A stretch of DNA of 64,000 nt from Pseudonocardia alaniniphila (lineage in GTDB: Bacteria > Actinomycetota > Actinomycetes > Mycobacteriales > Pseudonocardiaceae), in assembly GCF_022524485.1 (NCBI RefSeq), contig NZ_JAKXMK010000017.1:1-64000 (forward strand), in the 5' to 3' direction. Shown in pieces: positions 3,175 to 42,611 of this stretch. Both the position numbers and the translations under genes were made by a program. The stretch's first letter is position 1. Each line of letters begins with the position of its first letter. The notes beneath the pieces were generated by a model. That model searched no databases and was not told the origin of the DNA. It worked only from the letters and a program-made list of their open reading frames with translations.

Positions 3175-3193
3175 GGCGCGCGGCGGCCGCAGA

Positions 3194-4078: not shown

Positions 4079-4216
4079 GCAATTCCTCGCTTCTCCGGTC
4101 GAATGCCCTGCAAGTTCGCGGATGGAGGTTACCGTACGACCAGGACAGGTCGGTCCTACGAAGGAAGTTAGTAGGCATGCGCCACTAGGAATCGTAGTAG
4201 TCGCCGACGAAAACGG

Positions 4217-5464
4217 TCATACCGGATCGATGCGGAGTACCTGGTCATCGGCGCCGTTGGATGTTGATAGCAGGAGCGCCCCGTCGGGTGCGAGCCGGAC
4301 GGCCCGCAGCCGGCCGAACGCGCCATCGAGCGCGGGCGGAATGGTCACCTGAGCGACGTTACCGTCCGCGCCCAGGCGCATGAGCAGCAACTTCTGTCCG
4401 CGCAGTGCGCCCACCGCGAGTACTCCGTCGAGATCACCCCATTGTGGACCTCTCAGAAACGCCGCGCCGGACACCGCCTCCACCGGGCTGCCCGAGCTCC
4501 ACGCGGCGGACACGGCGTCGGGGAAGCGCTGGAGATCGGTCATCGGCACGGACTCGTCGTACCCCCCGACGGTGCCGCCGCGGGACGGGTCCCAGCCGTA
4601 GTTGGCGCCGGCACGCAGGAGGTTCACCTCGTCGTCTGTGGTCGGGCCGTGCTCGGCCGAGTACGCCGCTCCGGAGCGCGGATCGACGGCGACGCCCTGG
4701 ACGTTGCGATGGCCGTAGTTCCAGACGAGCCGCTGTGCGGGGTTGCCCGCGTCGGCGAACGGGTTGCCGGGCGCGGGCCCGCCGGTGGCGAGGTCGATGC
4801 GGAGCACCTTGCCGCCGAGCGACGTCAGGTCCTGCGGGATGGCGGCGCGCGCGGTGTCGCCGGTGCCGACGAGCAGCGTGCCGTCCGAGGCGAGCGTCGG
4901 GCGGCACCCCGAGTGCCGGCCCGACGGGTTGATCGGCATCCCGCCGACCAGTGGGTCGGCGACCCTGGTGGCGGCCCTGCCGTCGGCGGACAGCTGCCAG
5001 GTGACCAGCCGGACGTCGGTGGGGGTGCTTCCCTCCATATGGGTCTGGCACGTGGTGAATCGGCGGGTCTCGGCGAAGTCGGGGTGGACGACCATCCCCA
5101 TCTGCCCGCCCTCGCCCCGGACGTACACATCGGACTGATCGGCGTCGACGGGCGTGACGGTGGCCCCGGGCTTCGTGCTCGACAGCATCGCGATCCGGCC
5201 GTCCCGCTGGGTCAGCAGCACGCGTCCGTCCGGGAGGAATCCCAGGTCCCACACGTGCGACAGGCCTCCCGCGACGACGCTTGCCCGCAGCTCGGGCGTG
5301 CCGGTGCGGGCGAGGGGGGTGGGGGCCGAGACCGGCGCGGAGGAGCTGCCGGTCTCGCCCGAGGTCGCGGCGTCGGGCGCTGTGCATCCGGTGAGCCCCA
5401 GCGCTGCAGCGGCCACCGCTGCGACGACGAAGCGGCTGGCCGTGGTCCGCAGCATGAGCCTCAT
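4217..5464 (-). CDS. PQQ-dependent sugar dehydrogenase-like lipoprotein (GSDH)
   Basis: A 415-aa exported lipoprotein of the glucose/sorbosone dehydrogenase family, a six-bladed beta-propeller that binds PQQ and oxidises sugars on the outer face of the membrane. The signal peptide has an LTGC lipobox at residues 24-27. Propeller motifs include GLSHVWDLGFLPDG, YGHRNVQGVAVDPRSG and YSAEHGP, which match the PQQ/Ca2+ site region of the family. A second ATG lies at 5455. No PQQ synthesis genes are seen in the window, so the cofactor may be imported or the protein may bind something else. It diverges from the tricorn gene across about 100 bp. Confidence 0.85.
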   Translation of the reverse strand: MRLMLRTTASRFVVAAVAAAALGLTGCTAPDAATSGETGSSSAPVSAPTPLARTGTPELRASVVAGGLSHVWDLGFLPDGRVLLTQRDGRIAMLSSTKPGATVTPVDADQSDVYVRGEGGQMGMVVHPDFAETRRFTTCQTHMEGSTPTDVRLVTWQLSADGRAATRVADPLVGGMPINPSGRHSGCRPTLASDGTLLVGTGDTARAAIPQDLTSLGGKVLRIDLATGGPAPGNPFADAGNPAQRLVWNYGHRNVQGVAVDPRSGAAYSAEHGPTTDDEVNLLRAGANYGWDPSRGGTVGGYDESVPMTDLQRFPDAVSAAWSSGSPVEAVSGAAFLRGPQWGDLDGVLAVGALRGQKLLLMRLGADGNVAQVTIPPALDGAFGRLRAVRLAPDGALLLSTSNGADDQVLRIDPV

Positions 5465-5570
5465 CTTGCCGCCGCCCGAGTGAGGACGCGGTGTGCAAAA
5501 CGCCCATCCGCTTGCGAACGGGTCGATCTACGGCTCCCTGTCGACTCTGATGATCGCTACCGTCTGGACC

Positions 5571-8500
5571 ATGCCCCGCAGTTACCTCCGCTTCCCCCAC
5601 CTGCACGCGGACACCCTCGTCTTCGTCGCCGAGAACGACGTCTGGACTGCGCCGGTGTCAGGTGGGAGGGCCTACCGGCTCACCGCCGACGACGTGCCGG
5701 TCGATCATCCTCGCCTGTCGCCGGACGGCACGCGGGTTGCGTGGACATCCTGGCGGGACGGGGCGCCCGAGGTGTTCGTCAGCGACATCGACGGTGGCGG
5801 CGCGCGCAGGCTGTCCTACTGGGCCGACCCACGTGCGCACGTGGTCGGGTGGACGCCCGACGGAGATGTGCTCGCCGTGAGCACGGTGGGGCAGGCGTCC
5901 CGGCGGGGTTGGGCCTACGCGATCCCGCCGGGCGGTGGCACGCCGCGCCGGCTCGACCTCGGACCGGTCTCCGACGTCGCACTGGTCGCGGACGGCAGCC
6001 CGATCGTGATCGTCACCAGCGTCTTGTCGCGGGACATGGCCTGGTGGAAGCGGTACCGGGGCGGCACGGCCGGCAAGCTGTGGTGGGACGCGACCGGGTC
6101 CGGGCAGTTCGTGCGGCTCGCGGCCGATCTCGACGGGCAGATGGCGGCCCCGATGCTCGTCGGCTCCGGCGACGGGAGGCGCATCGCCTTCATCTGCGAC
6201 CACGAGGGCTGGGGCAACATCTACTCGCTCGGTGCGGACGGATCCGGGTTGCGGCGCCACACCGACCACGGCGGCCCCGATGCGCCGCCGTTCTATGTGC
6301 GGCACGCGAGCACCGACGGCGAGCGGGTCGTGTTCGAGTCGGCGGGCGAGCTCTGGATCCTCGACTCGCTCGACGACGCCGCCGAGCCCCGGCGCCTCGA
6401 CGTGCGACTCGGTGGCCCGCGCACGGCCCGCGAACCGCTCCGCATCCGCGCCGCCGACGAGCTCACGTCGGCCGCGCCCGACCGCACCGGTCGCACGAGC
6501 ATCGCGCTGGTGCGCGGCACCGTCCACCGGCTCACCCACCGCGACGGGCCCGCCCGCACGCTCCTCGCGGAACCGGGTGCCCGGGCCCGGCTGGCGTGGC
6601 CGCTCGGCGATGACCGCGTGGTGTGGGTGGACGACGTCGAAGGCGAGGACGCCGTCTGCGTGGCCCCGCTCGACGAGCGTGCCGATGGGGCGGCACCGCT
6701 GCGCCGTCACGGGGTCGGCGAGGTCGGTCGCGTGCTGGCGCTGGCCGCGGCCCCCGACGGGTCGAAGGTGGCGCTGGCCGCGCACGACGGGCGGCTCCTG
6801 GTGCTGGAGCTCACCGGCGACCGCGAAGGTGAGCTGCGTGAACTGGCGCGAGGAGCCGACGGGGAGATCAGTGATCTCTGCTGGTCGCCCGACAGCGCCT
6901 GGCTGGCCTATCGCGACCCGGTCGAGTCCGGCCTGACGCGGATCATGATGGCCCGGCTCGCCGACGACACGCTCGTGGCCGTCACCGAGCCGCGGTTCGT
7001 GGACATGGATCCGACGTTCACCTCCGACGGCAAGTACCTGGCCTTCCTGTCACGCCGCAGCTTCGACCCGATCTACGACGAGCACTCCTTCGACCTCACC
7101 TTCCCGGCGTCGTGGCGTCCGTTCCTGGTTCCGCTGGCCGCCCGCACGCCCTCCCCGTTCGGGGCGAGTCCTGACGGGCGTCCGGTCTCGCCGGGGGAGG
7201 AGGGGCCGTCGGACCTGCCCGCGCCGGCGGCTACGGACCCGTCGGCCGAGCCGGACGCCGCCGCCGAGAGCAAGGCCAAGCCGGAGAAGAAGAAGGACGA
7301 CACCCCGCCCGAGGTGGTGGTGGACGTCGAGGGGCTGGCCGACCGAGTGGTGCCCGTGCCCGTCGTCGCGGCGCGCTACAGCGGGATGCAAGCGGGGAAG
7401 GACTGCCTGCTCTGGTACCGGGTCCCCGTCTCCGGCGTGCTCGGCGACACCCGCGCGGGCACCGACCAGAAGGCCGAACGGCCGGTGCTGGAGCGCTACG
7501 ACCTGGTGCGCCGCAAGCTCGACGTGATCGCCGACCCGATCAGCGGCTTCGCCGTGAGCGGCGACGGCACGCGGCTCGTCGTCCGGGACGGTGGCACGCT
7601 GCGTGTGCTGCGGACCGACCGCCCGAACTCCTCGACGCCCGGTGAGGGCGACGCCGACGAGTTCGAGATCGACACCCGCCGGATCGTCGTCACTGTCGAC
7701 CCCACCGCAGAGTGGCGGCAGATGTTCGACGAGGCCGGCAGGCTGATGCGCGACCACTTCTGGGCGCCGGACATGGCCGGCGTGGACTGGGCCGAGGAGA
7801 TGGCCCGGTATCGGCCGCTCGTCGACGCCGTCGGCAGCCACGACGACCTCGTCGACCTGCTGTGGGAGCTGCAGGGCGAGCTCGGCACGTCGCACGCCTA
7901 CGTGTCCGGACGCGCGGCGGGCGACTACTCGGGGCAGCCTGGGCTGCTCGGCGCCGACCTGGAGCCCACCGACGACGGGTGGCGCGTGGTGCGCGTGCTG
8001 CCCCCGGAGACGTCGGCCCCCGCTGCCAGGAGCCCGCTCTCCGGGCCGGGTGTCGACGTCCGCCCCGGCGACGTGATCCTCGAGGTCGGCGGCAAGCCGG
8101 TCGACCCTGCATACGGACCTGCGCCGCTGCTCGTGTCGCGGGCCGACGAGCTGGTGGAGCTCACCGTCCGCTCCGGGCCGGACCGCGATGACGCGGGCAC
8201 GGTGCGCCGGGTCGTGGTCAAGCCGCTGTCGTCCGAGACGTCGCTGCGCTACCAGGACTGGGTGGCCGGCCGCCGGGCGTTCGTGGCCGACCGGTCCGAG
8301 GGCAGGCTCGGCTACCTGCATGTGCCCGACATGATGGCGCCGGGCTGGGCGCAGCTGCACCGGGACCTGAGCCGCGAGACCAGCCGGGAGGGCCTGATCC
8401 TCGACGTCCGCGGCAACAGCGGCGGGCACACGTCGCAGCTGGTGGTGGAGAAGCTGGCGCGCAAGGTGATCGGCTGGGACCTGGCGCGGCATCGCCAGCC

Positions 8501-8930
8501 CACGACCTACCCCGAGGACGCCCCGCGCGGCCCCGTCGTCGCCCTGGCCGACGAGCTGTCCGGCTCGGACGGCGACATCGTCACCGCGGCGATCAAGCGG
8601 CTCGGCATCGGCCCGGTTGTCGGCGTGCGTACCTGGGGTGGCGTGATCGGCATCGACGGGCGCTACGGGCTGGTCGACGGCACGCGCGTGACGCAGCCGC
8701 GGTACGCGTTCTGGTTCGACGACACGAACTGGAACGTCGAGAACTACGGCGTCGACCCCGACGTGGAGGTGGTGATCGCGCCGCAGGACTGGGTGGCCGG
8801 GCGTGATCCCCAGCTGGAGCGGGCCGTCGACATGGCGCTGGAGGCGCTGGCCGAGCAGCCCGCGGTGCGTCCGCCCGACGTGGCCACCCGGCCGAGCCGC
8901 CGCCGCCCGGAGCTGCCGCCCCGCCCCTGA
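5571..8930 (+). CDS. Tricorn protease homolog (S41)
   Basis: A 1119-aa cytosolic peptidase of the tricorn type, which trims peptides released by the proteasome. N-terminal beta-propeller repeats (VAENDVWTAPVSGG; YRLTADDVPVDHPRLSPDG) run to about residue 580. A Pro/Lys/Asp-rich linker (about 560-590) precedes the C1 helical, PDZ (LEVGGKPVDP) and C2 domains. The catalytic residues known from Thermoplasma tricorn have clear counterparts: Ser774-His775 (GTSHAYVSG) and Ser999-Asp1000 (SGSDGD), with DVRGNSGGH in the S41 core. ATG 5571 gives the family start MPRSYLRFPHLH; the frame is open further upstream but would run into the divergent promoter. A strong hairpin follows the stop. Confidence 0.93.
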   Translation: MPRSYLRFPHLHADTLVFVAENDVWTAPVSGGRAYRLTADDVPVDHPRLSPDGTRVAWTSWRDGAPEVFVSDIDGGGARRLSYWADPRAHVVGWTPDGDVLAVSTVGQASRRGWAYAIPPGGGTPRRLDLGPVSDVALVADGSPIVIVTSVLSRDMAWWKRYRGGTAGKLWWDATGSGQFVRLAADLDGQMAAPMLVGSGDGRRIAFICDHEGWGNIYSLGADGSGLRRHTDHGGPDAPPFYVRHASTDGERVVFESAGELWILDSLDDAAEPRRLDVRLGGPRTAREPLRIRAADELTSAAPDRTGRTSIALVRGTVHRLTHRDGPARTLLAEPGARARLAWPLGDDRVVWVDDVEGEDAVCVAPLDERADGAAPLRRHGVGEVGRVLALAAAPDGSKVALAAHDGRLLVLELTGDREGELRELARGADGEISDLCWSPDSAWLAYRDPVESGLTRIMMARLADDTLVAVTEPRFVDMDPTFTSDGKYLAFLSRRSFDPIYDEHSFDLTFPASWRPFLVPLAARTPSPFGASPDGRPVSPGEEGPSDLPAPAATDPSAEPDAAAESKAKPEKKKDDTPPEVVVDVEGLADRVVPVPVVAARYSGMQAGKDCLLWYRVPVSGVLGDTRAGTDQKAERPVLERYDLVRRKLDVIADPISGFAVSGDGTRLVVRDGGTLRVLRTDRPNSSTPGEGDADEFEIDTRRIVVTVDPTAEWRQMFDEAGRLMRDHFWAPDMAGVDWAEEMARYRPLVDAVGSHDDLVDLLWELQGELGTSHAYVSGRAAGDYSGQPGLLGADLEPTDDGWRVVRVLPPETSAPAARSPLSGPGVDVRPGDVILEVGGKPVDPAYGPAPLLVSRADELVELTVRSGPDRDDAGTVRRVVVKPLSSETSLRYQDWVAGRRAFVADRSEGRLGYLHVPDMMAPGWAQLHRDLSRETSREGLILDVRGNSGGHTSQLVVEKLARKVIGWDLARHRQPTTYPEDAPRGPVVALADELSGSDGDIVTAAIKRLGIGPVVGVRTWGGVIGIDGRYGLVDGTRVTQPRYAFWFDDTNWNVENYGVDPDVEVVIAPQDWVAGRDPQLERAVDMALEALAEQPAVRPPDVATRPSRRRPELPPRP

Positions 8931-8947
8931 CGGCCACCTCGTACGCG

Positions 8948-8984
8948 CGGCACTCCCGTCCGACAGGGCCGGACGGGAGTGCCG
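8948..8984 (+). terminator. Hairpin terminator after tricorn gene
   Basis: A perfect 15-bp stem (CGGCACTCCCGTCCG at 8948-8962 and its complement at 8970-8984) with a 7-nt loop, 18 bp after the stop. It has no U-tract, as is common for actinobacterial terminators. Confidence 0.75.
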
Positions 8985-9097
8985 CTCGTGCCGATGGGTG
9001 AACGCGCATGTGGGGGACCGATCGGGTGAGGGTCGGGCGCCGCTGCTCACATTCGGGCTGGTCATCACGAGTGTGTGCTGGTGGGAGGGGTGCACCC

Positions 9098-10330
9098 GTG
9101 ACGTCGCGGCGATCGACGGCGCTGCTTGCGCTGGGTCTCGTGCTGATTGCGGCGTGCACAGCGCCTCCCCCGCGCGTCCCGATGCAGCGCGGCCACAGCC
9201 CGATCACGGGCGAGCTGCGTGGCTCGGAGTTTCCCACCGCGCTGTCGCCGCTGATCGTCTCGACGTTCGAGCCGACGATCCCGTTCGCCGCCTCGAATGG
9301 GAAGTTCATCGCCACCTACGAGCTGAACCTGCGCAACATGACGTCGCTGATGCTCACGCCCACCCGGGTCGAGGTGCGCAGCCCGGCGGGTGTGGTGCTC
9401 TACACGCTCGACACGGCCCAGATCCCGCCCGCTCTCGCCCTGCCGAGCGCACGGTCGGGCGTCACCGGGATCGGCGACGGTCAGATCGCGATGCTCTTCA
9501 TGACGCTGGAGTTCGCCACGCGTGCCGAGATCCCCGATCGGCTCGAGAACCGGGTGACGGTGACGGCGCCCGGGTTCCCGCCGGAGGGCGTGACGTCGAA
9601 GTCGGTGGCGGTGACGGTGAGCGACGCGACGGTGCCGGTGCTGGGGCCGCCGCTCGTCCCGGGGTCCGGTTACATCGCGGCCGACAGCTGCTGCGATTCG
9701 GTGCGTCATCGCCGGGCCGGGCTGTCGGTCGACAACGGGTTCTGGTTCGCCCAGCGCTTCGCGGTGGACTGGGAGCAACTCGACGCGCGAGGCCGGACCG
9801 TCACCGGGGACGACCCGGATGACCCCTCCGACTACACGATCTACGGGAAGCAGGCGATCGCTGCCACGGACGGCACCGTCGTCAAGGTCATCGACGGCCT
9901 TCCCGACCAGGAGCCGGGCGAGCTCCCGGCGGGCATCAGCCTCGACAAGGCCGACGGCAACAGCGTGATCGTGGCGATCGAGGACGGCCTCTACATGCTC
10001 TACGCGCATATGCAGGCGGGCTCGCTGCGCGTCGAGGAGGGGCAGCGGATCGCGCGAGGGGACCCGATCGGCCTGGTCGGCAACAGCGGCAACAGCTCGG
10101 TACCGCACCTGCACTTCCACGTGATGGACGGGGCGTCGCCGGTGGAGTCGGAGGGCGTCCCCTACGTCATCGACTCCTTCACCGTCACCGGGCAGATCGC
10201 CTCGACCCAGGCTCTCGACCAGCTGGAGAACACCACCCAGCCCCTTCCGGTGCAGCCCACGCCGAGCGACGGCGCACACCGCGACCAGTACCCGCTGGAC
10301 CGGGTGGTCGTCAGCTTCCCCCGGGCCTGA
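9098..10330 (+). CDS. M23-family (LytM-like) peptidase lipoprotein
   Basis: A 410-aa predicted lipoprotein. The signal peptide SRRSTALLALGLVLIAAC ends in a lipobox (IAAC). Residues about 30-200 form an all-beta region of unknown role. The C-terminal half carries an M23 zinc-metallopeptidase fold: QRFAVDWEQ with the first metal-binding positions replaced or displaced, AHMQAGSLRVEEGQRIARGD, GNSGNSS, and HLHFHV with the HxH motif. Such proteins cleave peptidoglycan cross-bridges or regulate those that do. GTG 9098 is chosen because GGGAGGGG lies 8 bp upstream and the signal peptide starts here. The canonical HxxxD of active LytM enzymes is not obvious, so catalytic activity is uncertain. Confidence 0.85.
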   Translation: MTSRRSTALLALGLVLIAACTAPPPRVPMQRGHSPITGELRGSEFPTALSPLIVSTFEPTIPFAASNGKFIATYELNLRNMTSLMLTPTRVEVRSPAGVVLYTLDTAQIPPALALPSARSGVTGIGDGQIAMLFMTLEFATRAEIPDRLENRVTVTAPGFPPEGVTSKSVAVTVSDATVPVLGPPLVPGSGYIAADSCCDSVRHRRAGLSVDNGFWFAQRFAVDWEQLDARGRTVTGDDPDDPSDYTIYGKQAIAATDGTVVKVIDGLPDQEPGELPAGISLDKADGNSVIVAIEDGLYMLYAHMQAGSLRVEEGQRIARGDPIGLVGNSGNSSVPHLHFHVMDGASPVESEGVPYVIDSFTVTGQIASTQALDQLENTTQPLPVQPTPSDGAHRDQYPLDRVVVSFPRA

Positions 10331-10464
10331 CGCGGATCCCGACCCCGGGCGGGCGTGCCCGGTCCCGGGCGTAGCCTGGAAGCCGAGGCCCCACCGGGCG
10401 CCAGTCCCGGGTAGGGGTCTGTCTGTGCTGCCCAGCTCCTGCCATGCGAGGGGTATCTCGAACC

Positions 10465-13400
10465 GTGGCCATGCTCTCCGGTCTGCTTCATTCCTCCCTT
10501 TCCGACCCCGATCTGCGCGCTGTCCTCGATGCGGCGCGCAACGTGCGACCCGTGGTGGGCGAGATGCCCGCGCTGCGGATCGAAGGACCGTCCGCGCTTC
10601 GTCCGATCCTCGCCGCCGCATTCGGCTCACCGGTGGACGACGGCGGCGCCGGGCGCACCGTTCTGGCCGTCACCGCCACCGACCGGGAGGCCGAGGACCT
10701 CGGCGCCGCTGCCGCCGACCTGCTCGGGCGCGACGACGTGGCCGTCCTCCCGTCCTGGGAGACGCTGCCGCACGAGCGGCTCTCCCCGCGCCCCGACACC
10801 GTCGGACGGCGGTTGTCGCTCTTCCGCAAGCTGGCCCGCCCCGAGACCGCGCCGCGTGTGCTGGTCACCGCCGCGCGCAGCCTCATCCAGCCGATCGCGC
10901 CGGGCCTGGGCAGGCTCGACCCCGTCCAGCTGCGAGTGGGGGACACCGCCGACTTCAACGCGCTGCTCGTCCGGCTCGTGGAGCTGGCCTACACCCGCGT
11001 CGAGATGGTGACCGCTCGCGGCGAGTTCGCGGTGCGCGGTGGCATCATCGACGTCTTCCCTCCCACGGCCGAGCACCCCGTCCGCGTCGAGTTCTGGGGC
11101 GACGAGGTGAGCGAGCTGCGCTACTTCGCCGTCGCCGACCAGCGCTCGGTCGCTGCCGTCGCGGAGCTGGTGGCGCCGGGCTGCCGGGAGCTGCTGCTCA
11201 CCGAGCCGGTGCGCGCCCGAGCCGCGGAGCTCGCGCGCACCCACGAGAACAACCCGCCGCTGCGCGAGCTGCTGGAGCACCTGGCCGAGGGCATCCCCTC
11301 GGAGGGCATGGAGTCGCTCGTTCCGGCGCTGGTCGGTGGCGAGCTGGAGCTGCTTACCGACCTGCTGCCCGCGGGGTCGCCGGTACTGCTCGCCGACCCC
11401 GAGCGGATCCGCACCCGCAGCGCCGACCTCGTCCGTACGGGGCACGAGTTCCTCGAGGCGAGCTGGTTCGCGGCCGGCACGGGCGGGGCCGCGCCGATCG
11501 ACGTCGGAGCGTCTGCCTACCGCGACCTGGACGAGGTGCTCGACCACGCCGCCGCCACGGGACGGCCGGTGCTCACGCTGAGCCCGCTGCTGAGCGGGCG
11601 CGAGGACGCCCTCGCCCCGGCCGTGCACGAGGTGGAGTCCTACCGCGGCGACACGGACCGGGCGCTGGTCGACCTGCGCGCCCACGTCACCGCCGGTGGC
11701 ACCGCTGTGCTCGTCGTCGGTGGCCAGGGCACCGCGCAGCGTTCGCTGGAGCAGCTGCGTGAGGCGGACGTGCCGGCCACGCTCGTGGACCGGCTGACGG
11801 AGCCGCCCGAGAAGGGCCTGGTCACGGTCACCTGCGGGCGGCTGACGGAGGGCTTCACGGCCACGGCCAGCGCGCTCGTCGTGCTGACCGAGGCCGACCT
11901 CACGGGTAACCGGGCGGCGGGCACCGAGCCGCGCAAGCTCGCGTCGAAGCGGCGTAACGCCGTCGACCTGGTGACGCTGCAGCCCGGCGACTACGTCGTG
12001 CACTCGCAGCACGGCATCGGCAAGTTCGTCGAGATGCGCGAGCGCACGGTCAGCGGTGCCACCCGCGAGTACCTGGTGCTGGAGTACGCGTCGTCCAAGC
12101 GGGGCCAGCCCGCCGACCGGCTCTTCGTCCCCACCGACGCGCTCGACGAGATCAGCCGCTACGTCGGTGGTGAAGTGCCCACGCTCAACAAGCTCGGCGG
12201 TGGCGACTGGGCCAAGACGAAGGGCCGCGCCCGCAAGGCCGTCCGTCAGATCGCGGCACAGCTGGTGCAGCTCTACGCCGCCCGCCAGTCCTCGCCCGGC
12301 CACGCGTTCGCCAAGGACACCCCGTGGCAGCGCGAGCTGGAGGACGCCTTCCCGTTCACCGAGACGCCCGACCAGCTCGCCGCGATCGAGGAGGTCAAGC
12401 AGGACATGGAGCGCCCGGTCCCGATGGACCGTGTGATCTCCGGTGACGTGGGCTTCGGCAAGACCGAGATCGCGGTGCGCGCGGCGTTCAAGGCCGTGCA
12501 GGACGGCAAGCAGGTGGCGGTGCTCGTGCCCACCACGCTGCTGGCCACCCAGCACCTGCAGACGTTCTCCGACCGGATGCGCGCCTTCCCCGTCACCGTG
12601 AAGGGACTCTCCCGCTTCACCGACCCCGCCGAGGCCAAGCAGACCGTGGAGGGCCTCGCCGAGGGCACCGTCGACATCGTGGTCGGCACCCACCGGCTGC
12701 TGCAGACCGGCGTCCGGTGGAAGGACCTCGGCCTCGTGATCGTCGACGAGGAGCAGCGCTTCGGTGTGGAGCACAAGGAGCACATCACCGCGCTCCGCAC
12801 GCACGTCGACGTCCTCACGCTGAGTGCGACGCCGATCCCACGGACGCTGGAGATGAGCCTCGCCGGCATCCGCGAGATGTCCACGATCGCCACACCGCCC
12901 GAGGACCGTCACCCCACGCTCACCTACGTCGGCGCCTACGACGAGAAGCAGGTCGCCGCCTCGGTCCGGCGTGAGCTGCTGCGCGACGGCCAGGTGTTCT
13001 ACGTGCACAACCGCGTGTCGACGATCGACCGTGCGGCGCGGCGGATCCGCGAGCTCGTGCCCGAGGCGCGGGTGGCGATCGCGCACGGCCAGATGAACGA
13101 GGACCTGCTCGAACGCACGGTCAACGGGTTCTGGCACAACGAGTTCGACGTTCTCGTCTGCACGACGATCGTGGAGAACGGCCTGGACATCTCCAACGCC
13201 AACACGCTGATCGTCGAGCGGTCCGACACGTTGGGTCTCTCGCAGCTGCACCAGCTGCGTGGCCGGGTGGGCCGCGGGCGCGAACGTGGGTACGCGTACT
13301 TCCTCTTCCCGCCCGAGCACCCGCTCACCGAGACCGCCCACGACCGGCTCGCGACGATCGCCCAGCACTCGGAGCTCGGCGCGGGCGCCGCCGTGGCGAT

Positions 13401-14043
13401 GAAGGACCTCGAGATCCGCGGTGCGGGCAACATCCTGGGCGCGGAGCAGAGCGGCCACATCGCGGGCGTCGGGTTCGATCTCTACATCCGGCTCGTCGGC
13501 GAGGCCGTGGCCGCCTTCCGGCAGGCGGCAGGCGCGGGCGACGGCGAGGAGGAAGAGCAGCTCGCGGAGGTGCGGGTCGACCTCCCGATCGACGCGCACG
13601 TCCCCCACGACTACGTCACGGGGGAGCGGCTGCGGCTGGAGGTCTACCGCAAGATCGCCGAGGCGGGCGACGCCGCCGCTCTGGAGGCGATCGTCGAGGA
13701 GCTCACCGACCGCTACGGCGAGCCGCCCGTGCCGGTGCGCAACCTGCTCGCCGTCGCCGCGTTCCGCCAGACCTGCCGCACGCTCGGCGTCGCCGAGGTG
13801 GCGGTGGGGGGCAACGGCATCCGGATCGGCCCGGTCGATCTGCCCGACTCGGCCCAGCTGCGGCTCAAGCGGCTGCACCCGAAGGCGACGTACCGGGCTG
13901 CCACGCGGGCCGTGGTCGTGCCGCGGCCGATGGAGAGCGGCCGGATCGGCGGGACGCCGCTGCGCGATGCCGAGCTTCTGGACTGGTGCACCACTCTGCT
14001 GCGCGATGTACTGGCCCCGACCAGGGTGCCTGCGCCCGTCTGA
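10465..14043 (+). CDS. mfd: Transcription-repair coupling factor Mfd
   Basis: A protein of about 1190 aa that frees RNA polymerase stalled at DNA lesions and recruits UvrA. The UvrB-like N-terminal module is followed by the RNA-polymerase-interacting domain ([12 protein letters not shown], about residue 510), then a RecG-like motor with Walker [10 protein letters not shown] (about 660), the DEEQ box [23 protein letters not shown], and [12 protein letters not shown]-type motif VI. The C-terminal UvrA-binding module is present ([16 protein letters not shown]). Starts possible at ATG 10444, GTG 10465 and ATG 10471; GTG 10465 has GAGGGG 10-15 bp upstream. A strong hairpin ends the unit. Confidence 0.96.
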
Positions 14044-14049
14044 GCCGGC

Positions 14050-14088
14050 ACTCGTACCCGACCGGGTGTTGCACGGTCGGGTACGAGT
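14050..14088 (+). terminator. Hairpin terminator after mfd
   Basis: A perfect 15-bp stem, ACTCGTACCCGACCG (14050-14064) with its complement (14074-14088) and a 9-nt loop, 6 bp after the mfd stop. No U-tract. Confidence 0.75.
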
Positions 14089-14161
14089 CGGGCCGAATTC
14101 GTAACACTGTCCGGGTCCAGGGAGAGGTTCCAGCAGAAGCTCACCCGGGATCGGCCCTGGG

Positions 14162-14650
14162 GTGGGCCTGATCCCCCGGAGCGTTGCGTTGTCCGTTCCC
14201 CTCGCGGCCCAGCCGTCACAGCGGGCGCAGTACGTGCCCGTGCCCGCCACCTACGGGCAGCGGGTCGGTGGTTTCCTCATCGACGTCGGCATACCGATGG
14301 GTCTGCTCTTCACCGTGCTGATCGCCGCGCTGATCCCCCGCGACCGCACCCTGGCGCTGGTCGTCTACGCGATCTCGGCCGTGGTGGCCGTCGTCTTCGT
14401 GCTGTGGAACAGCGGGTACTGCCAGGGCCGCACGGGGCAGAGCCTCGGCAAGCGCGCGCTCGGGGTGCGGCTCGTCGGCGCGGCGACCGGGAAGCCCGTC
14501 GGGTTCCGGCGTGCCGTCGGTCGCCAGATCGCCCACCTGTTCGACGCGATCCCCTTCCTTCTCGGGTACGCGTGGCCGCTGTGGGACGAGCAGAAGCAGA
14601 CCTTCGCCGACAAGATGTGCCGCACGCTCGTGGTGCAGGCCGACCTCTGA
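14162..14650 (+). CDS. RDD family membrane protein
   Basis: A 162-aa membrane protein of the RDD family (named for conserved Arg-Asp-Asp). It shows YGQRVGGFLIDVGIPMGLLF as the first transmembrane segment with the RDD-type Arg and Asp, a second hydrophobic stretch (LALVVYAISAVVAVVFVLW), the loop GRTGQSLGKRALGVRLV, and a third helix near the C-terminus followed by DEQKQTFADKMCRT. Some members act in ion exchange or as membrane-stress factors, but most are uncharacterised. The GTG start at 14162 is tentative; TTG 14189 with CGGAG upstream is an alternative. Confidence 0.85.
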   Translation: MGLIPRSVALSVPLAAQPSQRAQYVPVPATYGQRVGGFLIDVGIPMGLLFTVLIAALIPRDRTLALVVYAISAVVAVVFVLWNSGYCQGRTGQSLGKRALGVRLVGAATGKPVGFRRAVGRQIAHLFDAIPFLLGYAWPLWDEQKQTFADKMCRTLVVQADL

Positions 14651-14725
14651 GCGTGACGGCCCGGTCGGCGATGTCCCGCGTAACGCACGGGCGCCGGTGG
14701 ACGGGTGAGACGGCCGTGAAAGAGT

Positions 14726-15667
14726 GTGGCGGTGCGCATGCAGGTAGGGCGCGTCGCAGCGGCCGTAGCGGTCCTGGGCGCGGTGATCGGTGGGTGCAGC
14801 GGTCCTGATCAGGCGGGATCGGCGGTGATCATCGGCGCCGACGCGGTGCCACTCACGCGCGTCCAGTCGCAGCTCGACGTGGCGCTGAGCAAGACCGACC
14901 AGATCGCCCGGATCACGGCCCAGGGCGGCACCACCGCCGACCTGTCTCGCAGCATCGTCACCCGCGAGGTGATTCACGACCTGCTCCAGCGGCGGGCCGC
15001 CGCGGACCGGGTCGTCGTCACCGACGCCCAGATCGACGCCGAGCTCGCCGGCAGCGGTGGAGTCGACGCGATCGTCGACGGCTCGCTCTACGACCACGCG
15101 ACACTCCGCCAGCGGGTGCGCGACGACCTCATCGCAGCGGAGCTCGCGAAGCGCTCGGTGGCCGGGCTCGCGGTCACGGTCGACCTGGTGGCGGCCACGT
15201 CCCGCGCCGACGCCGAGGCGAAGGCGCAGACGTTGCAGCACGGAGGCCCCGCGGCCGACGCGCTGTTCACCGATCCCCGGGTTGCCGAGCGGGGCACCAC
15301 CGTGCAGGCCGCCACCAACCCGAACGAGGCGGGCAGCGTGCTGTTCGGCGTTCCCGTGGGCGGGGTGGTCGCCTTCCAGCCCAGCCCGCAGGAAAGCACC
15401 TGGATCGTGTTCAAGGTCACCGAGCGGAGCACCAACGCCCCGTCCGACCCTGCCGCGGTCAACAACATGAGCCAGGCACAGCTCACCACCATCGGCGAGC
15501 GGCTGCTCCAGCCGGACGCCGAGAAGCTGGGCGTCCGCGTGAACCCGCGGTACGGGGTCTGGGACCCGATCCAGCTCCGTGTCGTCGCCGACGGGCAGCA
15601 GACGGGCATGGTCCTGCCACCGGTGGCCGCGCCCGCCCCCGCTCCCGGCACCGCCACAGTGGGCTGA
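14726..15667 (+). CDS. SurA N-terminal domain lipoprotein
   Basis: A 313-aa lipoprotein (signal VGRVAAAVAVLGAVIGGC with lipobox IGGC) whose helical middle resembles the SurA/PrsA N-terminal chaperone domain (SKTDQIARITAQGG, then REVIHDLLQRRAAADRVVVT). It lacks an obvious parvulin domain; the C-terminus is Pro/Ala-rich. A similar lipoprotein commonly lies between mfd and mazG in Actinobacteria, as here, which supports the call. It probably helps fold secreted proteins on the outer face of the membrane. The mazG gene begins 3 bp after its stop. Confidence 0.82.
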   Translation: MAVRMQVGRVAAAVAVLGAVIGGCSGPDQAGSAVIIGADAVPLTRVQSQLDVALSKTDQIARITAQGGTTADLSRSIVTREVIHDLLQRRAAADRVVVTDAQIDAELAGSGGVDAIVDGSLYDHATLRQRVRDDLIAAELAKRSVAGLAVTVDLVAATSRADAEAKAQTLQHGGPAADALFTDPRVAERGTTVQAATNPNEAGSVLFGVPVGGVVAFQPSPQESTWIVFKVTERSTNAPSDPAAVNNMSQAQLTTIGERLLQPDAEKLGVRVNPRYGVWDPIQLRVVADGQQTGMVLPPVAAPAPAPGTATVG

Positions 15668-37760: not shown

Positions 37761-37834
37761 GCCCCCGTAGCCCAATCGGCAGAGGCAGGCCCCTTAAAAG
37801 GGTTCCAGTGTGGGTTCGAGTCCCACCGGGGGCA
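37761..37834 (+). tRNA. tRNA with UAA anticodon (Leu?) but short variable loop
   Basis: A 74-nt cloverleaf: acceptor GCCCCCG/CGGGGGC (perfect 7 bp), D-arm GCC...GGC, anticodon stem GGCCC/GGGTT with loop CTTAAAA giving anticodon UAA, a 5-nt variable loop, and T-arm GTGGG-TTCGAGT-CCCAC. CCA is not encoded (ACCC). UAA should read the leucine codon UUA, yet true bacterial tRNA-Leu has a long variable arm, which is absent here. Its identity is therefore open. Its 3' half is an integration site. Confidence 0.85.
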
Positions 37835-37930
37835 CCCGGCCGCAACCAGCAGAATCGCCGTCTGACCAGCAGTAACCGACCCGTCGGGCGATCTTGTGCT
37901 GTCCGGCTGTGTCTGGTGGGCACCTGTGAT
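37790..37930. repeat. att-type direct repeat, left copy
   Basis: About 141 bp that match 41512-41652 at close to 90%: the first 37 bp are identical and lie within the tRNA, and the rest is the region between the tRNA and the integrase stop. It includes the shared stretches AACCAGCAGAATCGC and ATCTTGTGCTGTCC. Confidence 0.9.
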
Positions 37931-37971
37931 CACCGGCTGTCTGTGCTGAATACGTGCTGAAGTTTCGGCCA

Positions 37972-38707
37972 TCAGTAGCCACCGAGTACCGCGTCGATCC
38001 GACGTCGAGCCGCGTCCTCCTGGCCGACGATGACCTTCGCGTGATCTGGTGGAGCACCCCAACGCTGTGGCCGGCCCAGGCCGCTACCTGCGTGGAGGGC
38101 ACGCCCGCATTGAGCCACGTCGAGACGGCAGCGTGACGGAGGTCGTAAGGCCGGCGTGCCAATGGTGAGGCCGCCTCGTCCTCCGTCAGAGCGGCGACGC
38201 GAGCCTTCCGCCAGACACGGCAGTAGGTGCTCTCGGCCAGCTGTCCACCACGCACACCGCGGAACAGCAGCCCGTCCGGGCCAGTGCCGAATGATTCCAA
38301 GTGCGCATGCAGAAGGGCCGTGAGCGCCGGTGGCGAGGGCACGATCCGAGTCTCGCCACGGGCACGGTGCTTCAACTGCCGTTCCTCACGCCGCCGCCCA
38401 CTGTCGGTCCACGAGGCGCCAGCCTCTGGTGTCGACGACTCCAACAGCAGCTCGCCCCACCCCTCAGCGGGCAGCGCGAGGTTCGCCTTCCGCAGCGTCG
38501 ACGCCTCGCCCGGTCGCAGCGCCGCGTAGTACATCGCTCCAAAGAAGGCGACCAGTCGATCCCCACTCGGCTCCTGCGCCGCAACGGCGTCCAGGAGTGC
38601 GCGCGCCTGCACCGGGTTGACCACGACGCGCCGGTCGACGGTCTGAACGGTCCGCGGCGCCTTCCACGCAAGGTTGGTGATCGGGTTCTGAGTGAGGAGC
38701 CGTCGTT
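37972..38707 (-). pseudogene. Tyrosine recombinase (integrase), truncated and frameshifted
   Basis: The reading frame on the minus strand gives the catalytic half of a phage/ICE-type tyrosine integrase: VNPVQARALLDAV, the first Arg in AALRPGEAS, YDLRHAAVSTWLNAG with the box II Arg and His, and WAGHSVGVLHQI. Here family members continue Y-AKxxxGQEDAARRRIDA. The base that would complete the Tyr codon is missing (CAGATC-ACGCG near 38045), and the rest of the normal C-terminus, ending RRRIDAVLGGY at 37972, is read only after a frameshift. Upstream the frame meets a TAG at about 38708, so the N-terminal DNA-binding half is lost. It lies beside the tRNA and points toward it, as integrases of tRNA elements do. 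Confidence 0.85.
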
Positions 38708-38778
38708 CGACCGCGAACTCGGCCGGCTACCCGGCCCCCGAGGCGCCAGAGGGTGTGCTCTCGGTCCTCAGAGGGCGC

Positions 38779-38982
38779 TCAGCAGCGGCGGAACCACCAG
38801 GGCGACGGATGCGCGAGGGGGTTGTTCAGCGTCTTGTCCAGGAACAACAGGTCGAGCTTGGCGATCTGGCGACGGAGCGGTGCGCGCTGACGCAACGGTA
38901 GAGCGCACACCGCTTGTTCGAGCGCCTCCCGGGCGATGGGGCCGACGTACAGAACCAGGTCGTTATTCTCCCCCTGCAGCAT
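38779..38982 (-). CDS. Small hypothetical protein
   Basis: A 67-aa frame with a credible protein-like sequence: NDLVLYVGPIAREALEQAV, ALPLRQRAPLRRQIAKLD, and the end NPLAHPSPWWFRRC. I recall similar small proteins with a basic helix and a C-terminal PWW motif in actinobacterial mobile or accessory DNA, with no known function. ATG 38982 has no evident ribosome site, so it may be a remnant. It lies next to the truncated end of the integrase. Confidence 0.4.
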   Translation of the reverse strand: MLQGENNDLVLYVGPIAREALEQAVCALPLRQRAPLRRQIAKLDLLFLDKTLNNPLAHPSPWWFRRC

Positions 38983-39219
38983 GGAGGGCGGTTTTCGAGC
39001 TACGTCGCGCCACGTGAAAAGATGGCTGCGGACCCAGCCGGACGAAAGGTGGGGCCGGTCGAGCCGATCGAGAGCGCGGCTGGTGGACAGCGGAACGCCG
39101 TGAATCGGCGTGGGGTGTCGCTGACGACGGTTGCGAGCCCGTACTTGGGCCGGTCGCCTACGCGGCATGGACCTTTCGGATCGGAGCCATGGCCCCATGC
39201 TGCCAGAGAGTGACGATGG

Positions 39220-39234
39220 AGGGAATCGAACCCT
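39220..39234 (-). repeat. tRNA T-arm-like fragment
   Basis: On the minus strand AGGG-TTCGATT-CCCT has the form of a T-stem and loop, followed by CCATCGTCAC. No acceptor or anticodon arm is found, so it is at most a piece left by another integration event. Confidence 0.35.
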
Positions 39235-39326
39235 GTGGGCTCCGCCCACACCCGACACCGCTTCGGAGATCAGCGGAGTGCGGAGGGGTGGTGATCTCCT
39301 CACGGCGCGCCGAGACGGCTGCCAGC

Positions 39327-39378
39327 CCGAGGGGTGGGGCGCAAGGCTGGACTGAGTACCTTGCACCCCACCCCTCGG
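39327..39378. repeat. 18-bp inverted repeat downstream of the IS110 transposase
   Basis: CCGAGGGGTGGGGCGCAA (39327-39344) and its complement with one mismatch (39361-39378), loop 16 nt. It lies 49 bp beyond the transposase stop and could act as its terminator. Confidence 0.6.
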
Positions 39379-39426
39379 CCCGGCAGGGACGAGCCCGCGC
39401 CGCGAGACCTCCGATCTTGCTAAGGG

Positions 39427-40719
39427 TCAAGCCGGGGATGGTTGTGGTTGTGGTGCTCGTTCGGGGAAAGCCTTGACCGGGTCGTAGGACCGGCGGGTTT
39501 GTAGGCAGTGGTGGAGTTGGCCGATCATGCGGTTGAACAGGTGTCGTAGGGCGGCGGCGTGGCGGTCGCCGTGGGCTCGTCGCTGGTCGTAGTGGTCCTT
39601 GGGTGGGCCGGTTCTGGCCATCGTGGCGAAGGCCCAGACGAAGCCGACGGCGGCGAGCCGGTTGTTTTTGACCTGGCGCCTCATGATCACGGTGTTGCGG
39701 CCGGAGGCGCGGGTGACGGGAGCGGAGCCGGCGTAGGCCTTGACCGCCCGTGCGTCGGTGAAACGGGCGCGGTCGTCGCCGAGCTCGCCGAGGATTCGGG
39801 CTCCGGTGAGTTCTCCCAGCCCGGGGAAGCTGGTGATGATGGTGTGGTCGGGGTGGCTGCGGAAGGCCTCGATTGAGGCCTGACCGAGCTGTTCGGCGTT
39901 GTCGCATTCTGCGTTCAGCGTCGTCAGCAATGCGAGCGCCTGGCGGCTCATTGCCTGTTCGATCAGTGGAGGCTGGCGTAGCTGCGGAGCGTGTAGCGCC
40001 TGTGCGATTGCTGCAGCTCGGATGTGGGCGCCGCGCTTGCGCCCGCCCCGACGTAGCGCCGCTGCGATGCGCGCGACGCTGATTCGGGTTCCGGCGGCCG
40101 GTGATGGGGCGAGCGCGAGGACGTGGCGGGCGTCGGAACCGGCCAGGTTCGTGACGCCGCTGCCGCCGGCGCGAGCGAACGCCGTGAGGAAGCCCGGGTA
40201 GTACTCGCGCAACAGCGATCGCAGCTCAAGGGTGGCTCGGGTGCGTCGCCAGATCGCGTCCTGCGCCGCGCGGGCCAGTACGGCGATGGCCTGGGCGAGG
40301 TCGGTGTCGGCGGGCATCTTGCGGTGAGCGTGGGAGTCTGTGCGCAGGATGTTCGCCAATGTCATCGCGTCGGCGTGGTCGGACTTCGCCCGCGCGAATG
40401 AGTGGCGCTCGCGGTATCGGGCAACTGCCATTGGGTTGATCGCGAACACCGGGCGGGCGGTCGCGCGCAGGGCAGCCACGAGCAGCCCACGCGGGGTCTC
40501 GATCGCGACGGGGATCGAATCCTCGACGCTGTCACCAGCGGCGGTGAGCATGGCGGTCAGTTCGTCGAACCCGTCCGGCCCGTCGTTAATGCGCCGTTTG
40601 GCGATCAGGCCGCCGTCCTGGCCAATCAGGGCGATGTCGTGATGACGCTCTGCCCAGTCGATCCCGCAGAACACTCTCAAGTCCTCACCTACCTCGGGTC
40701 TGCTGTTTGTGCTGGTCAT
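39427..40719 (-). CDS. IS110-family transposase
   Basis: A 430-aa recombinase of the IS110 family. The N-terminal RuvC-like DEDD domain shows CGIDWAERHH (Asp), PVAIETPRG (Glu) and AKSDHADA (two Asp). The C-terminal domain has the helix-hairpin-helix block SFPGLGELTGARILGELGD and AYAGSAPVTRASG with the Ser that acts as nucleophile. It is intact and may be active. ATG 40719 begins MTSTNSRPEVGEDLRVFCG; the frame is open for 29 more codons upstream without family similarity. IS110 elements use a bridge RNA from their non-coding end; see 40720-41189. Confidence 0.92.
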   Translation of the reverse strand: MTSTNSRPEVGEDLRVFCGIDWAERHHDIALIGQDGGLIAKRRINDGPDGFDELTAMLTAAGDSVEDSIPVAIETPRGLLVAALRATARPVFAINPMAVARYRERHSFARAKSDHADAMTLANILRTDSHAHRKMPADTDLAQAIAVLARAAQDAIWRRTRATLELRSLLREYYPGFLTAFARAGGSGVTNLAGSDARHVLALAPSPAAGTRISVARIAAALRRGGRKRGAHIRAAAIAQALHAPQLRQPPLIEQAMSRQALALLTTLNAECDNAEQLGQASIEAFRSHPDHTIITSFPGLGELTGARILGELGDDRARFTDARAVKAYAGSAPVTRASGRNTVIMRRQVKNNRLAAVGFVWAFATMARTGPPKDHYDQRRAHGDRHAAALRHLFNRMIGQLHHCLQTRRSYDPVKAFPERAPQPQPSPA

Positions 40720-41189
40720 CTCCCTGGCCGGGTCGCGCGGCGCCCTAATGACAAGGCTCGCTGGCCTTCCCTCCGATGAGCCGTCCGCGATCCGGACGAC
40801 CCGCACGGTCCCAGGTTCGCGTCAGAGCTCGAGGCTCTGGAGTGACGGAGGGGCGCCCTGTGCGGGCGGGCTCGAACCACGATCAGGACCTCACCGCGCC
40901 GCGCCGCGGATATGACGCTGACACGCCGATCTCGTGTCCCAGCTACTGCAACGCCCAGCGAGCGACCGTGTCAGAGCACCCGTCTCGCGAGAGGGCTCAC
41001 AGCCCGTGGAGATCACCAGGCGTCTCCTGACACGGCCGCTCGACAGTCATTAGGAGATCACCACCAGGACCCGGTATGCGAGGGCAACAACGGCCGGCGC
41101 GGACTATGCACGGACGCACACAGGGGAGACGTTGCTCCATCGCAGGTCAGGCGCGGTTTGCCAGCCCACTGTAAATCCGCTGCGACTGC
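40720..41189. other. Non-coding region upstream of the IS110 transposase
   Basis: 470 bp without a plausible gene. It contains several hairpins, e.g. CAGAGC-TCGAG-GCTCTG (40823-40839), and a compact three-hairpin fold at 40966-41035. In IS110-group elements the bridge RNA is transcribed from the region 5' of the transposase, which is this side. Confidence 0.55.
40966..41035 (-). ncRNA. Candidate bridge RNA segment of the IS110 element
   Basis: A 9-bp closing stem CCGTGTCAG/CTGACACGG joins 40966-40974 and 41027-41035. Inside are three short hairpins: TCTCG/CGAGA, GGGCT-CAC-AGCCC, and GGAGA...TCTCC. This is more structure than expected by chance in 70 nt. The strand is chosen to match the transposase. 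Function as a bridge RNA is inferred from position and structure only. Confidence 0.4.
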
Positions 41190-41504
41190 TCAGGGATCCG
41201 GCGGTGTGTAGCCGCGCCTCAGGTTCTTATCGAACGGGTCGCGCCGCTGCGCGTCGCGGATATGGCGACGGGTTCGGCGGACGACGGCGGCGGCATCGCT
41301 CCTCAGGACGTGCCCGCGGCGGCGAGCCCGACGATCATGTGCTGCGGCGCTGATAAGGACGGCCACGACCACCACTGCAATCGTCGGCCAGAGCCACAGC
41401 ACGAAGCCAGTAAAGCAGGCCATGCCAAATACGTCCCGAAGTTCGCGGATCGGGTCGCGCGGCATGGCGGTTTCCGCAGGCCAGCGGGCACGACCGGCCC
41501 GCAT
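41190..41504 (-). CDS. Small membrane protein of the integrative element
   Basis: A 104-aa protein with one long hydrophobic segment (FTGFVLWLWPTIAVVVVAVL) and a basic C-terminal half (DRRARRRG, RRTRRHIRDAQRRD). Similar single-helix basic proteins occur in actinobacterial integrative elements, as I recall, without a known function. The ATG at 41504 is preceded by AAGGGG at a 7-nt spacing, and that ribosome site is part of the att core (the tRNA 3' half). ATG 41465 is an alternative start, giving 91 aa. Confidence 0.5.
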   Translation of the reverse strand: MRAGRARWPAETAMPRDPIRELRDVFGMACFTGFVLWLWPTIAVVVVAVLISAAAHDRRARRRGHVLRSDAAAVVRRTRRHIRDAQRRDPFDKNLRRGYTPPDP

Positions 41505-41511
41505 GGAGCTA

Positions 41512-41652
41512 CCCCTTAAAAGGGTTCCAGTGTGGGTTCGAGTCCCACTGGGGGCACCCTGCCACAACCAGCAGAATCGCACGCTGACCAGAAACAACCG
41601 ACCTGTCGGGTGATCTTGTGCTGTCCAGCTGTGTCTGGTGGACACCTGTGCC
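41512..41652. repeat. att-type direct repeat, right copy
   Basis: It begins with 37 bp identical to the tRNA 3' half (anticodon loop to T-stem), then one C-to-T change, GGGGGCACCC, and about 90 bp of diverged match to the flank of the left copy. The 5' half of a tRNA is absent, so this is not a tRNA gene. Confidence 0.9.
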
Positions 41653-41663
41653 CACCGACGCGG

Positions 41664-42257
41664 TTACCCGGCCACTTCCATGGAGTCGGGCCACGGCTCC
41701 ACGACCAGGCCCGGCCACTCGTGCTGCCACCGCTGAGCCTTCGCCTCGTAAACCGCCCGCGGTGCCAACAGCGGATTTGGACGTACCCGCATCGCGAACA
41801 GGTCCGCGTACCCGTGAGGCGCATAGTCGACCAGCTCACCTCTGGGCGTCCGAGACACGCCGAAGCAGCAGGTGGTCGACGCGAAGTGGTCGATGGCATC
41901 AGCTGAGCTGGTGAACCGCACTCCGGGGACACCGAAGCGCGACTCGTACCAGAGGTGCACGCGCGCTTCGTTGCGGACCTCCACTGTCACGCAGAGGTCA
42001 GCGAACAGGGCGGTGGCCTTGCGGATCACCGCGTCCTCGGCCTCGTAGGACAGGTCCGATGCGTCGTAGTAGAACAAGTCGTAGTCGGCGATCCCAGCGC
42101 CGGGGCTACGGCCGTCCAGGACGTTCCACACGGTCTGGAACACCGCCCCGGCGGTCAGCCACCAGTCCAGGACACCGAGGGCCGGCCCGCGGTCGAGGAT
42201 CGCCCCATTGATCGGGTTCCGCTGGACGAGGTCGAGGAAACGGGCACGCTGATCCAC
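41664..42257 (-). CDS. Nucleotidyltransferase family protein (DUF925-like)
   Basis: A 197-aa protein of the nucleotidyltransferase-like DUF925 family. It shows LDWWLTAGAVFQTVWNVLDG, then GIADYDLFYYDASDLSYEAED with the Asp-rich metal-like motif (DYDLFYYD), RVHLWYESRFG, and the C-terminal GYADLFAMRVRPNP and YEAKAQRW. The family is uncharacterised and resembles minimal nucleotidyltransferases. GTG 42257 is chosen because the frame upstream has no family similarity. It lies just to the right of the second att copy. Confidence 0.75.
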   Translation of the reverse strand: MDQRARFLDLVQRNPINGAILDRGPALGVLDWWLTAGAVFQTVWNVLDGRSPGAGIADYDLFYYDASDLSYEAEDAVIRKATALFADLCVTVEVRNEARVHLWYESRFGVPGVRFTSSADAIDHFASTTCCFGVSRTPRGELVDYAPHGYADLFAMRVRPNPLLAPRAVYEAKAQRWQHEWPGLVVEPWPDSMEVAG

Positions 42258-42611
42258 GATCAGCAGTCTGGTGCAGCGGGCCGACGAGCACCGCTGGCTC
42301 CGCCCGCACCTGTCGCCGCTTCGGACGCCGGTCAGAGGCGGTATGACAGCGCTCTGTAAATCTGGCCACGGCGTGGCGGCATCGTCTTCTTGTGATGCGC
42401 GGACGTGGCCTGGTTGCTTCACTTCCCACCCTTGTTGTCGTGAGCGCTCCCGCCAGCGCCACTCCTGGGTTCACTGCAGGTGATCGTGACGAGCTGACAA
42501 TGCGTGCTCTTCCGACGTTCTTCGGCGTGATCGAGCTGCTGCTGAGAGCTGGCGTGCCCGGCCCTGCGCTTCAGGGCGAATGCTGATCTTCTGAGGCGTT
42601 AGCGTCATGCC
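42258..42611. other. Intergenic region without a recognisable gene
   Basis: 354 bp between the divergent nucleotidyltransferase and GNAT genes. Frames here show no protein-like sequence. It presumably holds the promoters of both genes; no clear boxes are seen. Confidence 0.5.

Follow-up and report, generated by a model that had tools for sequence, protein, structure and literature searches.

Probable remains of two AICEs integrated in succession into a tRNA-Leu(TAA) gene of Pseudonocardia alaniniphila

Introduction

Actinomycete integrative and conjugative elements (AICEs) may be stacked in a single tRNA gene, and the examples given by Ghinet 2011 (PMC3218068) include the pairs Fean5518/Fean5534 in a tRNA-Lys gene of Frankia and Sav3708/Sav3728 in a tRNA-Arg gene of Streptomyces avermitilis. 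The locus described here lies in the first 64,000 nt (forward strand) of contig NZ_JAKXMK010000017.1 of Pseudonocardia alaniniphila (RefSeq assembly GCF_022524485.1), a stretch referred to below as the window. Behind its tRNA-Leu(TAA) gene, it carries what are likely (probability about 0.8) the remains of two related AICEs that integrated successively into that one gene and subsequently decayed. As in the pairs reported in that source, two elements of the same tRNA are stacked; however, the Frankia pair excises and the published elements are described there as AICEs, whereas both elements of the window are decayed and the second is nearly gone.

Two further systems are close to this locus. Fean6303, as described in the same report, has attL, attL2 and attR sites with three repeats that reach past the end of the tRNA, and it excises in two forms (PMC3218068), whereas the first element of the window has a broken integrase. 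The accretion and decay of AICEs in a Streptomyces population are among the subjects of Tidjani 2022 (PMC9513070), where accretion is described at one tRNA-Arg gene, and partial integrase, cargo and direct repeats remain elsewhere; both the genus and the tRNA differ from those of the window. A search of open-licence papers yielded no relevant one on a Pseudonocardia AICE at tRNA-Leu.

The ICESt1-related elements, streptococcal integrative and conjugative elements with a transfer system unlike that of AICEs, are reportedly islands whose evolution proceeds through deletions and accretion in tandem. The attP site of pSAM2 carries arm-type repeats. The elements considered here have a RepSA replication initiator and a tyrosine integrase in common with pSAM2, which is named in the Pfam description of RepSA, and the comparison is confined to gene types. 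Tandem accretion of AICEs is already published, and the event reported here is of a known kind with unusually clear remains; the cut tRNA-Tyr-type right ends discussed below are more novel.

The repeated tRNA half and its flank

ARAGORN finds a single tRNA gene in the 64-kb window, a complete tRNA-Leu(TAA) on the plus strand (37761-37836) with the anticodon at tRNA position 35. A repeat search of the window yields one dominant direct repeat, also on the plus strand, with copies at 37790-37935 and 41512-41657 (146 bp, 90 % identical, spacing 3722). Since the anticodon is at position 35, the repeat starts in the anticodon stem, and to the left of 37790 the copies do not match. Copy 1 consists of the tRNA 3' half, here called the core, and most of the flanking arm described below, while core copy 2 (41512-41558, plus strand) is a displaced tRNA 3' half identical to 37790-37836 at 46 of 47 positions. 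The initial annotation had reported a 37-bp core identical in both copies, which is exact at 37790-37826, and a match continuing for about 100 bp outside it, which is borne out by flanks that differ at 14 of 99 bases past the tRNA. Its start at 37790 stands, and its end at 41652 falls 5 bp short of the end found by the repeat search.

The comparison with relatives explains the additional 100 bp. Genomes and loci are denoted below by G and L numbers, with G000 for the genome of the window. In the related elements, the approximately 125 bp between the tRNA end and the integrase stop codon form a conserved arm (P'), from which an nhmmer profile of length 129 was built using the arms of 15 relatives, with the window left out. 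This profile recovers a complete P' arm of element 1 at 37839-37965 (plus strand; E 3.6e-31; profile positions 3-129 of 129) and a truncated P' arm of element 2 at 41561-41658 (plus strand; E 5.1e-17; positions 3-100), from which the integrase-proximal arm site is gone. As a window-free profile scores the flank of copy 2 this highly, the repeat is not due to chance; an Infernal model applied to the whole genome also finds the copy-2 arm (3.4e-14). The sequence model of the arm matches 52 of 62 genomes of the genus at E up to 0.001, some of them weakly. In the genome of the window, P' arms stand behind tRNA-Leu(TAA), tRNA-Tyr(GTA), tRNA-Arg(CCG) and, weakly, tRNA-Arg(CCT), and in G051 one stands behind tRNA-Leu(CAA), so the arm belongs to the elements, with which it travels, and not to the Leu locus itself. 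The extra 100 bp are the integrase-side arm of a Pseudonocardia family of pSAM2-like AICEs. The two tRNA-Arg arms are found in L091 (G000:C83; CCG) and L092 (G000:C62; CCT), and the arm at the CCG site is accompanied by a crumb of an integrase C-terminus.

The inner junction and a possible course of events

By the rules under which site-specific integration proceeds, the P' arm behind copy 2 marks this copy as the former left end of an element, so that two elements stood in tandem. The arrangement of arm-type sites points the same way. The final 26 bp of the P' arm are found again 86-108 bp to the left of most further cores in the genus (displaced core copies downstream of the tRNA), although some of these P-site marks are weak nhmmer hits, with E values as high as 10. 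A matrix trained on 22 site hits of relatives, among which were two duplicates and probably a few chance matches, was run over 127,950 window positions on both strands. Its best match (38.2 bits, 37939-37964, plus strand) is the arm-type site on the P' side of element 1, and its second best (32.4 bits, 41418-41443, plus strand) is that on the P side, 94 bp to the left of core 2; the next-best plus-strand match reaches only 11.0 bits. Because the two best matches fall at the ends of element 1, copy 2 reads as P (element 1)-core-P' (element 2), with the P site at 41418-41443, the core at 41512-41558 and the P' arm at 41561-41658, as expected of the inner junction of a tandem array. The proposal of the initial annotation that two related elements were once integrated in tandem in one tRNA is thereby supported. 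With both arm sites and both cores retained and a broken integrase, element 1 has, from its sequence, the make-up of a cis-mobilizable element (CIME).

A plausible course of events would be as follows. Both elements would be of the tRNA-Leu(TAA) type and would have entered through a crossover in the anticodon loop, with the integrase presumably binding the predicted arm sites. The older element 2 would have replaced the tRNA 3' half and brought its own P' arm, and the younger element 1 would then have recombined into the rebuilt tRNA, pushing the older 3' half and P' arm downstream and giving an array of the form tRNA-core-P'1-int...P1-core-P'2-... In this order of arrival, the copy adjoining the tRNA would have come last, because of the rules of site-specific integration. 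By this tandem reading, the tRNA-Leu(TAA) 3' half from 37790 onwards is element-derived; when the tRNA 5' half is joined to the old 3' half, the product is still recognised as tRNA-Leu(TAA). Subsequently, element 2 may have lost its integrase, replication and transfer genes, its integrase-side arm site and its right att site, whereas element 1 may have lost most of its genes, suffered the breakage of its integrase and received an IS110-family insertion while keeping both arm-type sites and cores.

Apparently whole, stacked and decayed elements in relatives

An alignment search with the integrase found 23 loci in named genomes, 16 of them filed as Pseudonocardia. The apparently whole relative in G004 (L047) encodes the integrase (Int), RepSA (PF20199, 3.4e-102), an FtsK/SpoIIIE protein and a GntR/UTRA regulator, which is the gene set of an AICE. 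Homologues of the integrase, replication (Rep) and transfer (Tra) genes stand in the same order in at least nine other loci (L026, L027, L032, L035, L040, L041, L044, L048 and L050), and the Tra proteins of L040 and L044 are only 34-35 % identical. In L047, behind the apparently whole AICE come a second core, its P' arm and a broken integrase, of which the fragment is 87-91 % identical to the first Int, and then a third core.

The tRNA-Leu(TAA) gene was read in 59 of the 62 genomes searched, the others being G053, G054 and G051, for which the Leu(CAA) gene was fetched instead. A P' arm stands behind it in 28 of the 59 genomes, 13 of which provided training arms for the profile, leaving 15 independent cases, and it is absent from 31, including G047, whose contig ends at the tRNA. 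Further cores occur in 19 of the 59 genomes (on a contig other than that of the tRNA in G037, G047 and G048), and in 11 genomes a P' arm stands behind a further core. Among the 22 further cores in total, 14 have a P' arm and 19 a P-site mark, some of these marks being weak. An integrase is recognisable behind four of the 14, namely the second core of G004, two cores of G048 and, as a 28-residue piece, one of G027. Solo P' arms in L031, L033 and L034 are accompanied by crumbs of integrase or replicase, and these flanks are therefore scars. In G008, integrase crumbs lie behind a second core whose P' arm is missed by the profile.

The genome of the window has a second such locus. At its own tRNA-Tyr(GTA) gene (L153, G000:C21:20001-40000, positions 3796-15200), an apparently whole AICE (Int 55-57 %, Rep 74 % and Tra 66 % identical to the Leu-type references) ends at another Tyr core, behind which lie a weak P' arm (E 4.6e-4) and crumbs of an integrase. 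This is a second tandem scar, the same event at another tRNA. The initial annotation had suggested a search for intact elements and empty sites in relatives: apparently whole and stacked elements were found, as in L047, and no clean empty site with both window flanks was found among the relatives.

Several loci deserve separate mention. In L051 (G056), three Leu cores, each with a P' arm, are stacked at 3030-8900, with a Tyr core, P' arm and integrase fragment between them, and a 1.3-kb unit at 7432-8726 has both arms and no recognised integrase. P' arms likewise persist behind further cores without a recognisable integrase in L046, L042, L050, L037, L051, L032, L045 and L047 (its third). Downstream of the Leu-type AICE genes of L048 (G043), the stretch 14599-14822 (tRNA orientation) resembles a second attP, its core being tRNA-Tyr-like and accompanied by a P' arm. 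A contig filed under a Verrucomicrobia metagenome-assembled genome (L105) carries this integrase at 85 % identity (residues 105-453), which is probably a binning error and would otherwise indicate cross-phylum transfer.

Contents of element 1

An integrase adjoining an att site in the 3' end of a tRNA gene characterizes AICEs, and in the window its relic lies behind the P' arm of tRNA-Leu(TAA). This tyrosine integrase pseudogene (38031-38849, minus strand; Pfam Phage_integrase and tblastn) covers about residues 153-435 of 454. Its N-terminus is missing, it contains two stops (one TGA, one TAG) and its frame is lost just upstream of Tyr 432, a residue that is invariant in the alignment of relatives (A1) and, judging from the family, presumably the catalytic tyrosine; in relatives the integrase is full-length.

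To its right, a right-end module of the AICE family (39235-39406, plus strand) is 92 % identical both to L050 (13485-13658) and to the tRNA-Tyr AICE of the same genome (L153, 14410-14578). By comparison with relatives, this module is interrupted by an IS110-family insertion sequence (IS), whose ends would lie at 39407 and 41051 if judged from the break in the module; it encodes a transposase (39427-40806, minus strand; Pfam DEDD_Tnp_IS110 6.7e-31, Transposase_20 5.6e-12). Beyond the insertion lies a tRNA-Tyr-type P arm (41052-41179, plus strand; profile E 1.2e-17) that is cut at the first bases of a Tyr core (CTGTAAATCCG). Searches of the window by tblastn with the RepSA and the FtsK/SpoIIIE transfer protein of L047 found neither, Prim-pol types lying outside the replication search. 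In their present state the elements of the window are relics, not AICEs.

Element 2 and the right flank

The earlier suggestion that the second element was mostly lost and its left end kept agrees with the truncated P' arm behind copy 2. The arm stops at 41658, six bases short of the end of a gene for an NTP_transf_6 nucleotidyltransferase (NTP6; 41664-42260, start approximate, minus strand; Pfam PF06042, 1.2e-49). The distribution of NTP6 across the 62 genomes of the genus is patchy, with matches in 8 at E below 1e-80 and in 10 at E up to 0.001. In two of six further loci, P' arms or Tyr cores are found no more than 5 kb from it. These are the tRNA-Tyr stacks of G022 and G042, in which its orientations differ; in G034 it adjoins a tRNA-Ser gene without a P' arm, and in G061, G044 and G024 no tRNA or P' arm is present within the 20 kb read. 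The block 41683-42324 is 84 % identical to G042 and abuts a second tRNA-Tyr-type P-arm fragment (42319-42362, plus strand; profile E 3e-4), which is cut at CTGTAAATC, matches L156 at 89 % over 37 bp and forms repeat family D5 with 41141-41177. This fragment may be a relic of the right end of element 2, and NTP6 could conceivably have been its cargo, a possibility only weakly indicated.

Behind copy 2, a Pfam search also places a GNAT gene beside NTP6, and a putative glyoxalase-like gene was named from its sequence. The latter recurs only in G061, about 0.55 kb behind a solo scar, and in G041, about 7 kb away; in the other loci read, no glyoxalase-like gene, NTP6 or GNAT gene was found near tRNA-Leu(TAA) at E 1e-10.

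Weighing the alternatives

Several observations weigh against two successive insertions. Behind copy 2 there is no integrase remnant, the P' arm ends at position 100 of the 129 of the profile, the 20 kb read around copy 2 contain no third core, and the supposed relic of the right end at 42319-42362 is a weak match. No recognisable integrase lies behind 10 of the 14 further cores with a P' arm, those of the window, G006, G012, G028, G032, G037, G056 (twice), G060 and the third of G004, and several of these integrase-less arms are full length; P' arms outlive the integrase more often than is explained. The dN/dS of 0.07-0.14 between the integrase fragment of element 1, with no stops in 227 codons, and five relatives rests on a dS of about 0.8-1.3 and is similar to values between intact genes (0.11-0.25). 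As dS is near saturation, the ratio dates the loss only roughly, and together with the stop-free codons it suggests that element 1 was seemingly under selection until fairly recently.

The same fragment bears on the possibility that one element integrated as a dimer and its two P' arms diverged in place. A dimer would give an identical tandem junction, and the two flanks are indeed each other's best match (117 bits, with the next at 86.9 for copy 1 and 71.6 for copy 2). However, 14 of 99 flank bases differ, yet the integrase fragment is so well preserved that element 1 looks young for such divergence, and the best-preserved stack, L047, joins distinguishable elements. Two distinct related elements fit better, and the diverged dimer appears improbable.

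No greater weight is given to a single insertion beside a native flank that already resembled P', which would amount to a long att repeat of about 146 bp. Some AICE att repeats may extend past the tRNA, as described for Fean6303 in Ghinet 2011 (PMC3218068). A tRNA with a P' arm and no recognisable whole integrase is found, for example, in G052, G045, G055, G033, G061 (with a truncated P' arm), G007 and G012, and the 10 integrase-less further cores would also be accommodated. Against this stand the 31 of 59 genomes without a P' arm behind the tRNA (G047 being unjudgeable), which include G036, G020 and G034, close by rpoB, as well as the crumbs that mark the solo flanks of L031, L033 and L034 as scars and the P' arms behind other tRNAs; such a flank is thus an unlikely source of the repeat. 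Duplication by IS110, the alternative named in the initial annotation, draws on the presence of an IS110-family element between the two copies, and it fails on the position of that element. The insertion lies within element 1, at distances of about 0.46 kb (copy 2) and 1.5 kb (copy 1) from the repeats, and the module it interrupts runs unbroken in L153 (at 14577/14578) and L156. In the genome, the insertion was found only once, and its activity would not account for P' arms that follow further cores in 10 other genomes; copying by IS110 was rejected as the cause and retains hardly any probability.

Selection for a tRNA terminator, considered as a reason why the copy-2 flank was kept, was also rejected, with hairpin z values of 0.5 (copy 1) and -0.8 (copy 2) in the window. 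Of six short or cut P' flanks, all except L034 (L028, L029, L031, L033 and L036) have a strong hairpin directly behind the tRNA, as do a few elements. In the genus, z below -2 was obtained for 8 of 28 flanks with a P' arm and 3 of 29 without (two of the 31 being left out), and the hairpin-bearing flanks are not independent because they are similar in sequence.

Cut tRNA-Tyr-type right ends

The P arm of element 1 at 41052-41179 is 81 % identical to the tRNA-Tyr AICE of the same genome (L153, 14577-14705), and the match stops at +2, 2 bp past CTGTAAATC, the start of the Tyr core. Seven cut Tyr-type ends were counted: window 41052-41179 and 42319-42362, L154 10831-10938, L155 11114-11188 and, in oriented loci, L046 8287-8391 and 5928-6006 and L042 6789-6868. 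Identity to the Tyr reference is 72-95 % over the left 40 bp and only 24-37 % over the right 46 bp. In five of the seven the match runs out at +0 to +2, in the other two at +5 and +8, and for the L046 end at 6006 a gapped right-side alignment scores slightly above its shuffles. The count used 11 of 17 Tyr-type profile hits, with registers set by eye. The Tyr or Tyr-like core is kept in L048, L051 and L171 and damaged in L084, whereas the hits in L030, L034, L042 (its second) and L090 stop 4-10 positions short of the profile end, which places their ends no further than the core, and they lend no support to a cut at the crossover. Similar cut half-sites are present at the Leu loci of G006 and G012, at the tRNA-Ser(CGA) locus of the genome of the window and at the tRNA-Arg(CCG) locus of G061. 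Relaxed ARAGORN runs on right-end modules gave only noise; the Tyr origin came from the comparison with the tRNA-Tyr locus of the same genome. It is tentatively suggested, as a possibility that is more doubtful than not, that the stacked elements hold fossils of an earlier tRNA target, in the form of Tyr right ends that break off close to the anticodon-loop crossover and give way to unrelated DNA.

Significance

If this suggestion holds, AICEs would switch their tRNA target by site-specific recombination at the old overlap, leaving behind a half-site whose junction would record the change.

Mobile elements of actinobacteria often dock in tRNA genes, and the displaced tRNA halves and P' arms found here constitute a layered record, with the age of the layers expected to increase downstream. 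AICEs are usually found by their integrase, replication and transfer genes; the P' arm and the 26-bp site may be used as markers of decayed AICEs that have lost all three.

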